A DNA stretch of 64,000 nucleotides from Romboutsia hominis. Lineage in GTDB: Bacteria > Bacillota > Clostridia > Peptostreptococcales > Peptostreptococcaceae. Both the position numbers and the translations under genes were made by a program. Positions 5,684 through 14,581 of this stretch are shown piece by piece (positions within the stretch are counted from its first letter, which is position 1; the number at the start of each line of letters is the position of its first letter). Under the pieces are notes generated by a model that saw only the letters and a list, made by a program, of their open reading frames with translations, had not been told where the DNA came from and made no database searches. Location: positions 930,001 to 994,000 of the forward strand of contig NZ_LN650648.1 in assembly GCF_900002575.1 (NCBI RefSeq), read 5' to 3'.

Positions 5684-5911
5684 ATGAAACCAAATCCAGA
5701 CGATAGAAGAGACAATGTTGAGAAAATACAATGTAATATAAATCATACTCTAAAAAATATTAGATTAGCAAATGAAATGATTGAAAAAGTAGATAATCCT
5801 GAAGAAAGAAGAAAATTAGAGGAAAAAAATAAAAGAAGAGAGGAATCTCTTAGTAATATGCGTAGTGAAATAAAAGAAGAAGCTAATGTAAATAAAAATG
5901 AGTATAGATAA
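5684..5911 (+). CDS. tlp: Small acid-soluble spore protein Tlp
   Basis: A 75-residue hydrophilic protein opening with KPNPDDRRDNVEKIQ, which closely resembles the N-terminus of Bacillus Tlp. It continues with the family's helical charged body (EERRKLEEKNKRREESL) and a C-terminal NEYR. Tlp is a thioredoxin-like-named minor small acid-soluble spore protein made in the forespore. This is the clearest sporulation marker in the window. An AAGGAGAT site precedes the ATG. It is monocistronic and closed by a terminator shared with the convergent HTH gene. Confidence 0.9.
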   Translation: MKPNPDDRRDNVEKIQCNINHTLKNIRLANEMIEKVDNPEERRKLEEKNKRREESLSNMRSEIKEEANVNKNEYR

Positions 5912-5941
5912 TTAAAATATATAATTTATAGTTAGACATAA

Positions 5942-5983
5942 AAAAGGTAATAAGTATGTACTAACATAAACTTATTACCTTTT
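5942..5983. terminator. Bidirectional terminator between tlp and the HTH gene
   Basis: Complementary 14-base arms AAAAGGTAATAAGT and ACTTATTACCTTTT lie between convergent genes. Confidence 0.85.
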
Positions 5984-5989
5984 AAAATA

Positions 5990-6424
5990 TTAATCATCTA
6001 AACAAGCCAAACCTCTATCGTATAAAAGTTCATTTAATTTTAGAATACCGATTCCTTTGTTTACACCAAATATAATTACAGCATCTCTTAAATTTTTAGA
6101 ATATAGCTCACCACAATCTGCAAGTCTTAAAGCTTTATTAGTTTCTTTAATATCTAGACTTGCTCCGATACAAAGTTTGATAACTTTATCGCGACTAGGT
6201 TTTTTACTTCCATTTAAAATTTGATAACCATAAGTTCTATCTATACAAGCATTTTTTATAAGTTCACTTTTAGTAATTTGTTTATGTTTTAAAATATCTT
6301 CAAAAAATGTTTTGAACTCTAAGCCTTTATATTTATCATAGATATCTACTAGATATTCATCTAAGCAGCTTTCATCTTTTATATTTTTTAAAACTCTCAT
6401 TAACTCTATTGTTTCATTATTCAA
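5990..6424 (-). CDS. HTH protein of the kinase cassette
   Basis: 144 residues starting at a TTG behind GGAGGTGAT. Residues about 45-105 look like a helix-turn-helix of the XRE class (ITKSELIKNACIDRTYGYQILNG, then KPSRDKVIKLCIGASLDI). The flanking helices are not typical of phage repressors. It is the second gene after the DUF308/papain-like gene, with a 15-base gap, and is divergent from a Ser/Thr kinase gene. Small HTH proteins of this type are commonly found beside protein kinases in Firmicutes (general knowledge). A role as regulator or kinase substrate is inferred only. Confidence 0.75.
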   Translation of the reverse strand: MNNETIELMRVLKNIKDESCLDEYLVDIYDKYKGLEFKTFFEDILKHKQITKSELIKNACIDRTYGYQILNGSKKPSRDKVIKLCIGASLDIKETNKALRLADCGELYSKNLRDAVIIFGVNKGIGILKLNELLYDRGLACLDD

Positions 6425-6439
6425 GCTATCACCTCCAAT

Positions 6440-7735
6440 TTATATAGAAGATTGTTTCATATAAAGTTGTTTTTTTACAACTATAGTATTTTTTCTTTTA
6501 AATAAATTATCTAAATAATTATAATAAGTACCAGGTGTTATTATACCATTTATTGCTATTAAGTCTAAACCTATAGAACCTACGATAGTATCTGCAAGTC
6601 TTACACAATTTGCTGTTAGAGTAAAGTATGTTTTAAAATACCCAGATTTGAATTTATAAAATTTACAATTAGTATCTAAAAACATTAGATTTGTTTCATC
6701 AGTATACTCTTTAAATGGATCTTTCTTTGAATTACATTCCCAGTGAATACAATTATTTTTAATAGATGATATTTTATCTTTAATAGCATTATGTTGAATT
6801 TTATTTAATGCTAAAGTAAACCCTATTAGAGAACGATTGCATTTAGAATTTATAAAATTAATATATTTTTTAGTATCAGCTTCTAATAAAACACCATCGC
6901 TAACAAGTGTAAATAATCTATTAGAACTACTATCATAAGTTCCATATGAATAAGTTATTCCATCAAAAGATATATCAACATGACCAAATCCATTAGCACA
7001 ATCAGGAGCTAGATGAATAAATATATCTATTGTTGAAAAAGAGTTATCTATTAGATTATCATAGTCACTACTTTCAACTAAAACTTTATTATTAGGATTT
7101 ACCTTGATAAAATTATTAATTTTATCTAATAGATGTTGAGGTATAAATGCGGCATAAACTATTGGTAGTGTAATCCTAAATCTCCTTTTTAAATTAGATT
7201 TAAAGGCATTGATATCTAAAATCTCCCTTAAAAAATCAGAAAAAAGTGTAAGAGATATTAGTATCACATATATACTGCATATTTTATCTACTATAGATAT
7301 ATAATCTAGTGGATAAAATAATAAAACAACACCAAATCCTAATGATATTAAGCTAAAAATAAAGCCTCTTACACATTCTTTTACATTGTTTTTGTATAAA
7401 ATAATAGCTGCAGTAATTCTACCTACAAAATTTAATAATGCATACAGACCTATTATTCTTATAATAGATACCGTTAAAAAAATAGGATTATATTTAATAA
7501 AAAGCCCAAGAGAAATACAAAGAATACCTTCAACTAGTGTATTTATATGGCGCTTTTCTTTGTTAAAAATATAAGTTAGCATAGATAATGTACCTATAAC
7601 TAATAAAAAAGTTAGTATCATATCAGTTGTTATACTTCCTATAAAATCAGAACTAAATAACATAATAAGTCCTAGTATAAATAAAATTATAGATTTTGAT
7701 AATATAGAAAAAGGGGATATAGTTTTTACGTTCAT
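6440..7735 (-). CDS. DUF308/HdeD-like membrane protein with a papain-like C-terminal domain
   Basis: 431 residues. The N-terminal ~170 contain about six hydrophobic segments in the HdeD/DUF308 style. The rest is soluble and holds GHVDIS (H252) and TANCVRLADT (C377), followed by TPGTYYNYLD (400-409). The His-then-Cys order and the TPGTxYN tail resemble permuted NlpC/P60 papain-like hydrolases of the YiiX/YaeF type. Function is therefore proposed, not shown: a membrane-anchored amidase or peptidase. It has a good GGAGG site and is first of a two-gene unit with the HTH gene. It is divergent from the kinase gene across about 110 bases. Confidence 0.7.
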   Translation of the reverse strand: MNVKTISPFSILSKSIILFILGLIMLFSSDFIGSITTDMILTFLLVIGTLSMLTYIFNKEKRHINTLVEGILCISLGLFIKYNPIFLTVSIIRIIGLYALLNFVGRITAAIILYKNNVKECVRGFIFSLISLGFGVVLLFYPLDYISIVDKICSIYVILISLTLFSDFLREILDINAFKSNLKRRFRITLPIVYAAFIPQHLLDKINNFIKVNPNNKVLVESSDYDNLIDNSFSTIDIFIHLAPDCANGFGHVDISFDGITYSYGTYDSSSNRLFTLVSDGVLLEADTKKYINFINSKCNRSLIGFTLALNKIQHNAIKDKISSIKNNCIHWECNSKKDPFKEYTDETNLMFLDTNCKFYKFKSGYFKTYFTLTANCVRLADTIVGSIGLDLIAINGIITPGTYYNYLDNLFKRKNTIVVKKQLYMKQSSI

Positions 7736-7846
7736 ATAAAACCTCCTTACAGATAGTATAATATTATCATTAAATTAGAAGTTTAACAAAATAGTATTTA
7801 TGTATGATATAATTTTACTGAAAATGTAGATAAAGAGGGATTAAAT

Positions 7847-9004
7847 TTGAATTTAGAAGCAGAACTAGAGTTGTCTTTATATGAAGAACTAAAAACAATA
7901 CATAAAAGTAGTAAAAGTGAAGTAATACTTGTTCATAATAATATAAAAAACAAATTATATATAAAAAGATTATTAAAAGAATGTAATAAAGATGTATACT
8001 ATGCTTTAAAAAATATAAAAAGTGAAAATATACCTAAAATATATGAAGTATTTGAAATAGATAATAAGTTGGTAGTAATAGAGGAGTTTGTAAATGGTAA
8101 AACTCTTCATGAAAAATTAAAAGAAACAGATCATTTAGAAGAAATAGAAGTTATAAATTATATAATATCTTTATGTGACATATTAAATATATTACATAAT
8201 CTAAATCCACCAATAATACATAGAGATATTAAGCCATCTAATATAATGATAAGTAATGATAATGTATTAAAGCTTATTGATTTTGATATATCTAGAAATT
8301 ATAAATACGGAGAAAATATGGATACAATTTTACTAGGCACTAAAGGTTATGCATCTCCTGAACAATTTGGATTTGAACAAAGTGATTGTAGAAGCGATAT
8401 ATACTCATTGGGTATTATGATGAATGTGCTAACTACAGGAAAGCATATAAAAGAAGTTGAAAATAAAGGGTTATTGGAAAATGTTATAAAGAAATGTACT
8501 AAGATATCTCCAGATGATAGGTATCAAGATGTATCAGCACTAAAGAGTGATTTAATAAAATTAATTTATAAAACACAAGCCAGTAAAGAAAAAAATATAA
8601 ACAAAATAGGATATAAATTAAAAGAAAAAATTATAAATGAAGATAGTAGTAAACCTATAAATATTAAAACTAAAAAAATTAATAAAAACACTAGGTTAAA
8701 ATCTAAGTATATACCAGGGTTTAGAAATGGAAATAGGATCAATATGACACTATCTACAGTATTTTATATATTTTTAATAATAGGACTATTTGTTGTAAGT
8801 AGCATTGGTGAATTAATACAAAACTTAATAGTAGTAATAATGCTTTTAATGTATTTTTTATTATATACTAATTTTCTAGATATAAAAAACAAGTTACCAA
8901 TTATAAAAAGTAATAAATTACATATAAAGATACTTGGATATGTACTATATTCTAATATAATATTTTGGAGCCTAGGTATACCATTAACTTATATTGTAGG
9001 GTAG
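7847..9004 (+). CDS. Membrane-anchored Ser/Thr protein kinase
   Basis: 385 residues with a TTG start behind AAGAGGGA. Catalytic elements are present: lysine in LYIKRL (K40), IIHRDIKPSN (HRD 125-127), LIDFDISR (DFD 145-147 replacing DFG), GTKGYASPEQFG (SPE replacing APE) and SDIYSLG. The glycine-rich loop is poorly recognisable. The C-terminal third holds a basic linker, then three or four membrane helices, with no PASTA repeats. It is divergent from the HTH and papain-like genes and is followed by an FxLYD lipoprotein gene. Kinases of this type are known in Clostridioides beside PrkC (general knowledge). Confidence 0.88.
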   Translation: MNLEAELELSLYEELKTIHKSSKSEVILVHNNIKNKLYIKRLLKECNKDVYYALKNIKSENIPKIYEVFEIDNKLVVIEEFVNGKTLHEKLKETDHLEEIEVINYIISLCDILNILHNLNPPIIHRDIKPSNIMISNDNVLKLIDFDISRNYKYGENMDTILLGTKGYASPEQFGFEQSDCRSDIYSLGIMMNVLTTGKHIKEVENKGLLENVIKKCTKISPDDRYQDVSALKSDLIKLIYKTQASKEKNINKIGYKLKEKIINEDSSKPINIKTKKINKNTRLKSKYIPGFRNGNRINMTLSTVFYIFLIIGLFVVSSIGELIQNLIVVIMLLMYFLLYTNFLDIKNKLPIIKSNKLHIKILGYVLYSNIIFWSLGIPLTYIVG

Positions 9005-9082
9005 TTGTATGCTATGAGCATACCAATAGGCTATAAATAAACTTTATAATAAATAATGAAATAGTTATTATGGAGGTTATTT

Positions 9083-9493
9083 ATGAAAAAAGTTTTACTA
9101 GGAGTTATAATAGGATTTGTAGTTATAATAGGAGGTTGCGCTCTAATGCTTGCACAAGGTGCATCTAGTGTTAACCATGCTATAGAAGAAACACAATCAC
9201 AATCAGAAAAAGAAAATAAGAAAATAGAAGAGATGGCTAAAAATATTACTTGGGAAATAAAAAAAGAAGATTACATGACTAAAATAGTTGGAGTTTTTGA
9301 AAATACAAGTAATGAAATGATAGATTATGTTCAGTTTGATTATAAGCTATTAGGAAAAGATGGTACTGTTATAGAAAAATCTTTTACTAATGAAAGTGAT
9401 ATAGCACCAGGAGAAAAAAGAAAAGTTGAAATATTATGTGAAAAAGATGATTTTGATAGCTACGAAATAATTGCTACGAATACTGCATTTTAA
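9083..9493 (+). CDS. FxLYD-type small lipoprotein/membrane protein
   Basis: 136 residues with an N-terminal hydrophobic segment ending in IIGGC, a possible lipobox, then a short helical linker and a domain containing VGVFENTSNEMIDYVQFDYKLLGKDG. The domain matches the FxLYD immunoglobulin-like fold seen in extracytoplasmic proteins. An ATGGAGGT site precedes the ATG. It lies 78 bases after the kinase gene, with a terminator directly after it, so it may be read with the kinase gene. Function unknown; probably an envelope protein. Confidence 0.7.
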   Translation: MKKVLLGVIIGFVVIIGGCALMLAQGASSVNHAIEETQSQSEKENKKIEEMAKNITWEIKKEDYMTKIVGVFENTSNEMIDYVQFDYKLLGKDGTVIEKSFTNESDIAPGEKRKVEILCEKDDFDSYEIIATNTAF

Positions 9494-9495
9494 GG

Positions 9496-9533
9496 AAAGT
9501 ATATCTTAACAATTGTTAAGATATACTTTTTTT
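9496..9533. terminator. Terminator after the FxLYD gene
   Basis: An almost loop-free inverted repeat AAAGTATATCTTAACA/TGTTAAGATATACTTT is followed by T residues. Its left side is A-rich, so weak activity in the other direction is possible. Confidence 0.85.
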
Positions 9534-14164: not shown

Positions 14165-14581
14165 CTAATTTATACTAAAAAGCATATTAATAGAATTTGA
14201 AGGAGACTTATCTTTTATAAAAGATTTAAATATTACATTTCCATCTTTGAGGTTATACTTTTCTAAATTGAATTTATTTTCAAAAACAAATTCTAAATCT
14301 ACATAACTATTTGGAGTAATATTATTTATATCTTTAGATTTTATAGTATAGCTATATTGTTTTTCGTATTTATCGCTTAATATTAAGCTAATATCTGGAT
14401 CTATAAATTCATCGTTCGATTCATTTTTTAATCTTATATTTATTTTTGTGCAATTATTATCATTTATATAACCTAAAAATTCAAATTTCAAATTAGGGTC
14501 TATATTATTATCAAAAGAATTAAAACCTATTAAATACATACTTAATGAAAATAATAAAAAAGCCATAAATAACTTTCTCAT
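14165..14581 (-). CDS. Small secreted protein, unknown function
   Basis: 138 residues. The N-terminal 20 are a signal-like hydrophobic helix after MRK. The rest is beta-rich and polar (LKFEFLGYINDNNCTKINIRLKNES, split here as a strand-turn-strand pattern). It resembles the immunoglobulin-like domains of small clostridial envelope proteins, but no family is recognised. A GGAGG site precedes the ATG. Confidence 0.6.
   Translation of the reverse strand: MRKLFMAFLLFSLSMYLIGFNSFDNNIDPNLKFEFLGYINDNNCTKINIRLKNESNDEFIDPDISLILSDKYEKQYSYTIKSKDINNITPNSYVDLEFVFENKFNLEKYNLKDGNVIFKSFIKDKSPSNSINMLFSIN

Follow-up and report, generated by a model that had tools for sequence, protein, structure and literature searches.

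Within the 64,000-nucleotide stretch of the Romboutsia hominis genome analyzed here (the window; the host genome is assembled in one 3.04 Mb contig), four genes lie between positions 5990 and 9493. All four ORFs, together with the motifs named for them in a preliminary description, are present exactly as described, and the features of the locus are as follows:

5990–6424, minus strand: HTH gene (144 amino acids, TTG start), encoding a small, predicted XRE-type HTH regulator with Thr5 as candidate phospho-acceptor
6440–7735, minus strand: DUF308/papain-like gene (431 amino acids), a lineage-specific neighbor outside the conserved module
6461–7084, minus strand: permuted papain-like (NlpC/P60) domain, residues 218–425 of the DUF308 protein, predicted cytosolic
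6980–6982 and 6605–6607, minus strand: codons for H252 and C377, respectively, of the DUF308/papain-like gene
7736–7846: putative ancestral promoter region shared by the HTH and kinase genes, split by an insertion and today bounded by the DUF308 and kinase genes
7761–7789, minus strand: candidate promoter of the DUF308 gene, TTGTTA-17-TAATAT, a sequence match only
7803–7813, plus strand: extended −10 element of the kinase gene, TATGATATAAT, identical in eight relatives
7847–9004, plus strand: membrane Ser/Thr kinase gene, non-PASTA (385 amino acids, TTG start)
7922–8575, plus strand: kinase domain, residues 26–243, with K40, HRD (125–127), N132, DFD (145–147) and SPE (170–172)
8714–8725, plus strand: PGFR motif, kinase residues 290–293, ahead of the first transmembrane helix
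9083–9493, plus strand: FxLYD-domain lipoprotein gene (136 amino acids, invariant Cys19), located 3′ of the kinase gene in all family modules
9497–9529: likely terminator of the kinase–FxLYD transcript, a perfect inverted repeat and then a T run, seen in the sequence and not called as a terminator by a pattern scan

On the other side of the locus, a gene for the small acid-soluble spore protein Tlp (5684–5911; E 1e-25) is convergent with the HTH gene, and an inverted repeat at ~5940–5985 between the two probably terminates both transcripts.

The kinase matches the Pkinase profile with E=5.5e-34, and its Hanks-type catalytic residues (K40, H125-R126-D127, N132, D145 and E172) are invariant in seven orthologues. 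The glycine-rich loop GxGxxG is not found, residues 17–29 being free of glycine in the orthologues; since the other motifs are intact, the product is best called a divergent kinase-domain protein and not a canonical kinase. The DFD (D145-F146-D147) and SPE (S170-P171-E172) variants that had drawn attention to it are indeed present, but they are normal among the kinase's own relatives and were therefore dismissed as a special feature. Its non-PASTA nature was upheld, with no PASTA match among Pfam and NCBIfam profiles; a PrkC/Stk1-type NCBIfam model matches at 7.5e-39, but scores 134 bits where the cut-off is 450. Elsewhere in the genome, a second kinase, a 639-codon frame at 2.25 Mb, is probably the PASTA kinase. 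The architecture of the family consists of the kinase domain, a linker, the PGFR motif (present in 44 of 55 kinases, where it directly precedes the first hydrophobic helix) and, usually, three C-terminal hydrophobic segments. No external sensor domain was found in the kinase; the protein ends after these helices, and the placement of a membrane-anchored kinase inside the cell is supported.

The HTH protein is less easily classified, with an HTH_19 match (E=0.018) that falls below the Pfam cut-off. Profile matches to the restriction-modification controllers C.AhdI and C.BclI (E 0.007–0.01) and a helical AlphaFold model (pLDDT 91, rising to 96–98 in a block over residues 41–100) nevertheless support a predicted XRE-type fold. 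Additional elements include an N-terminal helix with Thr5, a conserved DRTYGYQI segment and C-terminal LYxKxxRD helices. The fourth protein possesses an FxLYD domain (E=8.2e-12; NCBIfam 44.8 bits against a cut-off of 23), and Cys19, at the predicted lipobox, is invariant in 12 homologues, which supports the earlier suggestion that it is a lipoprotein. A small exported protein encoded at 14165–14581 of the window shares with it a sub-threshold match to the Pfam family WxLIP_HBD.

Whether the four genes form one cassette, as had been proposed, can be judged from their inheritance. The co-occurrence of all four in other genomes had been set beforehand as a test, and the outcome was split. In a survey of 71 genomes from 23 genera of Peptostreptococcaceae (HTH E < 1e-30; kinase orthologue at least 50% identical; FxLYD E < 1e-49), the HTH, kinase and FxLYD genes were confined to the identical 11 genomes and were adjacent in all 11 (Fisher p 4e-13). 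The HTH gene is divergent from the kinase gene and the FxLYD gene lies downstream of the kinase gene, so that the conserved unit in this family is one of three genes (HTH, kinase and FxLYD lipoprotein), and the perfect co-occurrence and adjacency bear out the FxLYD gene as a partner of the kinase. In two of the 11 genomes the kinase is broken (G030 and G066), with the HTH gene also interrupted in G030; these sequences suggest a joint decay of kinase and HTH. The breaks are frameshifts or stops in the kinase at L039 (G066) and at L004 and L043 (G030), and the HTH gene of G030 holds a stop. The FxLYD gene of that genome nevertheless retains a near full-length match.

The DUF308/papain-like gene does not travel with the other three. 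Whole or in part, it occurs in 11 family genomes, five of which also hold the module, and only in the window genome does it separate the HTH gene from the kinase gene. In the others it lies ~1 Mb from the module (G027 and G030) or on another contig (G026 and G051), and no HTH or kinase gene was found in the ~1.5 kb flanks of the 27 other DUF308/papain loci (9 + 18) that were read. Because the gene lies elsewhere in the relatives and its other copies have neither HTH nor kinase beside them, the arrangement in the window would represent a lineage-specific insertion between the two, as judged from one genome of the genus.

Traces of such an event can be seen in the intergenic region. In the compact form found in relatives, ~50–100 bp separate the start codon of the HTH gene from that of the kinase gene, and the promoters overlap in eight of eight cases; the HTH promoter (TTGATT-17-TATCAT) and the extended −10 of the kinase (TATGATATAAT) occupy the same bases on opposite strands. 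The window retains the latter at 7803–7813, while the ancestral HTH promoter is lost, its −35 element being gone. As the HTH gene begins 15 bp 3′ of the DUF308 stop codon, it is probably transcribed from the DUF308 promoter, and the DUF308 gene has thus probably taken over HTH transcription in this genome. A generic promoter scan revealed no enrichment (35 sites versus 35.5 in shuffles), and no operator common to the families was recognised, only promoter-like elements.

It has to be asked, then, if all four genes could still be one envelope-signaling cassette, in which the papain-like protein is a working member in this lineage. The 15-bp gap and probable co-transcription of the DUF308 and HTH genes would fit this notion, as would the five family genomes that hold both (Fisher p 0.01). 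In every other genome with both, however, the two genes lie at distant loci, no other DUF308 copy that was read adjoins an HTH or kinase gene, and the papain-like domain is predicted to be cytosolic, all of which makes such a cassette very improbable.

The predicted location of this domain follows from the loop charges of the DUF308 protein. Its N-terminal part matches DUF308 above the cut-off (E=3e-6) and is HdeD-like, and an AlphaFold2 model built from 27 homologues (pLDDT 83.5, pTM 0.80) has an alpha/beta domain in addition to six membrane helices. All 27 homologues retain H252 and C377, with His before Cys, i.e., in the permuted order. While a Foldseek search with the whole model gave no significant match (best E 0.19), a second structural aligner placed residues 230–430 on TseH (6v98) with Z 11.7 and rmsd 3.3 Å over 147 residues; the next-best row had Z 8.3 over 60 residues of the helical part. 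The model is therefore in agreement with the papain-like fold foreseen for the C-terminal part, for which TseH appears to be the closest match, with the DUF4105/Lnb group nearby (an Lnb_N match was seen in two of the 27 homologues, weak, with best E 0.02). Together with TseH, DUF4105/Lnb, YiiX and LRAT, it would share the permuted NlpC/P60 fold and the His-before-Cys order, but differs in its fusion to a DUF308 membrane part of six helices and in its predicted cytosolic orientation. K+R values are 3.0, 2.6 and 5.4 for loop 2, loop 4 and the tail, versus 0.5–0.7 in loops 1, 3 and 5, and the tail has 5.4 K+R versus 1.0 D+E; because of this positive charge, the papain-like domain should face the cytosol. 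An extracellular domain, which the preliminary description had envisaged outside or at the membrane, was rejected on the same loop charges.

Enzymes of the permuted NlpC/P60 type are connected with lipids. YiiX binds fatty acid (PMC3142127) and Tox-Act1 is a phospholipase; for TseH, one assay showed phospholipase activity and another did not, and DUF4105/Lnb, which includes a Firmicutes branch, is a lipoprotein N-acyltransferase (PMC12994826). The DUF308/papain-like protein is probably a separate, cytosol-facing membrane enzyme acting on lipid or acyl groups. The two parts also occur as neighboring genes, with DUF308 first (L140:811–2295 and L141:1498–2854), in what could be an ancestral or a split form. 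In Paraclostridium benzoelyticum (G026, L021:1195–2019), an in-frame deletion has taken out the final membrane helices along with the beginning of the papain-like domain and its catalytic His.

Beyond the family, the HTH and kinase genes remain together. A scan with the HTH alone, covering one genome per species in 84,980 species, led to 59 fetched loci, mostly from Lachnospiraceae and other Clostridia, plus Erysipelotrichaceae. A kinase gene adjoins the HTH gene in 55 of these and is divergent in 51, with gaps that are mostly short, while two of the four loci without a kinase are at contig edges. As the search made no use of kinases, the pairing was not built in. Among 391 Clostridia genomes, 66 strong HTH matches were found, 54 of them with a kinase match less than 5 kb away (43 divergent), and the best 23 kinase matches were all paired with an HTH. 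Adjacency across many lineages, the mark of a kinase–regulator pair, is therefore established. In addition, HTH and kinase distances correlate (rho 0.54, 51 loci), a figure that partly reflects shared ancestry. FxLYD was encountered in a single Clostridium locus outside the family and is thus not essential to the pair. A search of part of the literature found nothing relevant on the kinase–HTH pair, the PGFR kinase motif or the DUF308–papain fusion.

One could suppose that the pair belongs to a phage-defense system, given that the best PADLOC models for the kinase are defense kinases (mad6, 1.5e-38; PD-T4-6, 2.4e-38). These matches, however, span only the kinase domain, as they would in any Hanks kinase; the HTH, DUF308 and FxLYD proteins have no PADLOC match, and the module is flanked mostly by ordinary housekeeping genes. 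A defense role is accordingly scarcely credible.

A more substantial alternative is that the HTH protein is merely a local repressor of its own gene and that of the kinase, with the kinase acting on other substrates, such as cell-wall or division proteins, and not through the HTH protein. The very short divergent intergenic regions and overlapping promoters are much like those of an auto-regulator, and CD2148, a non-PASTA membrane kinase of C. difficile, influences the phosphorylation state of dozens of proteins (PMC9674922). In some lineages, however, the HTH gene is in tandem or tail-to-tail with the kinase gene, an arrangement in which their linkage cannot be put down to a common divergent promoter, and neither the unusual conservation of the HTH sequence nor the invariance of Thr5 would be expected of a local repressor. 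This explanation is considered unlikely, though not implausible.

Thr5 is present in 80 of 80 aligned kinase-adjacent HTH proteins and is never replaced by Ser (one further sequence was unaligned there). It also occurs in 12 HTH proteins for which no kinase was found, a set that includes the window HTH, whose short locus excludes its kinase, and some at contig edges. Five of six macrodomain-fused HTH proteins lack Thr5, and their DRTYxYQI segment is altered. Since the residue is invariant when a kinase is paired and missing in most macrodomain fusions, it is the best candidate for a phosphosite, although it could alternatively serve as a helix cap. Thr64, in the recognition helix, was discarded as a phosphosite, for paired HTH proteins carry S, I, N, V or E in its place. 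The macrodomain fusions (320–365 amino acids; L012:1492–2454, L013:1474–2568, L014:736–1833 and L190–L192), in which the macrodomain precedes the HTH, adjoin a vWA gene of the TerY-like kind, and no kinase was seen when the surrounding stretches L188–L192 were read. On the basis of weak matches, they could form a separate, ADP-ribose-linked regulatory pair through the Clostridia.

The HTH protein was previously regarded as the likely effector of the kinase, and that view has gained support. The reading preferred here, considered moderately probable, is that of a three-gene module (XRE-type HTH, kinase and FxLYD lipoprotein), with an unrelated DUF308/papain insertion, in which the kinase phosphorylates the HTH protein, likely at Thr5. 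Pairing and co-inheritance, protein architecture, and promoter overlap with its remnants are steps drawn from the data. The PGFR segment and the C-terminal hydrophobic helices would keep the kinase on the inner side of the membrane. For the steps of sensing, phosphorylation and DNA binding, we infer that the kinase, without an external sensor domain, may respond to the state of the envelope, perhaps via the lipoprotein, and would phosphorylate the HTH protein, the most likely site being the invariant Thr5 in the flexible N-terminus of the latter. Phosphorylation might then alter how the HTH protein binds DNA, both in the overlapping divergent promoters and at its targets in the rest of the genome.

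In bacteria, a Ser/Thr kinase typically acts diffusely on many substrates and lacks an obvious partner. A kinase with one adjoining DNA-binding protein across distant Clostridia and Erysipelotrichia would offer a clean kinase-to-gene pathway, for which both a phosphosite (Thr5) and an operator region are predicted in this case. Many of the bacteria carrying the pair are gut bacteria. There is perhaps an even chance that it represents an undescribed, widespread form of signaling in Clostridia and Erysipelotrichia, wherein a sensorless PGFR kinase controls an XRE regulator via Thr5, one kinase to one regulator, as the Ser/Thr equivalent of a two-component system.

Several known systems invite comparison. 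CD2148 of Clostridioides difficile is, like the window kinase, a membrane-anchored Hanks-type kinase without PASTA repeats (PMC9674922). CD2148 is monocistronic, however, whereas the window kinase has approximately three C-terminal hydrophobic segments, the PGFR motif and a paired HTH; within the 71-genome survey, no HTH match was found in the genus taken as Clostridioides. PrkC/Stk1-type kinases share the kinase domain but differ in their PASTA repeats, which are absent from the window kinase. Likewise, the C.AhdI and C.BclI controllers have the predicted XRE-type core in common with the window HTH, which differs in its Thr5 helix, its LYxKxxRD helices and its lack of adjoining restriction genes. 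In Mycobacterium tuberculosis, the membrane Ser/Thr kinase PknH is encoded beside EmbR and phosphorylates it, and the likeness lies in a membrane Ser/Thr kinase gene beside a transcription-factor gene. The window pair shows neither the SARP/FHA make-up of EmbR nor an external domain like that of PknH. In its working, then, the pair would resemble a two-component system or PknH–EmbR, while belonging to neither.
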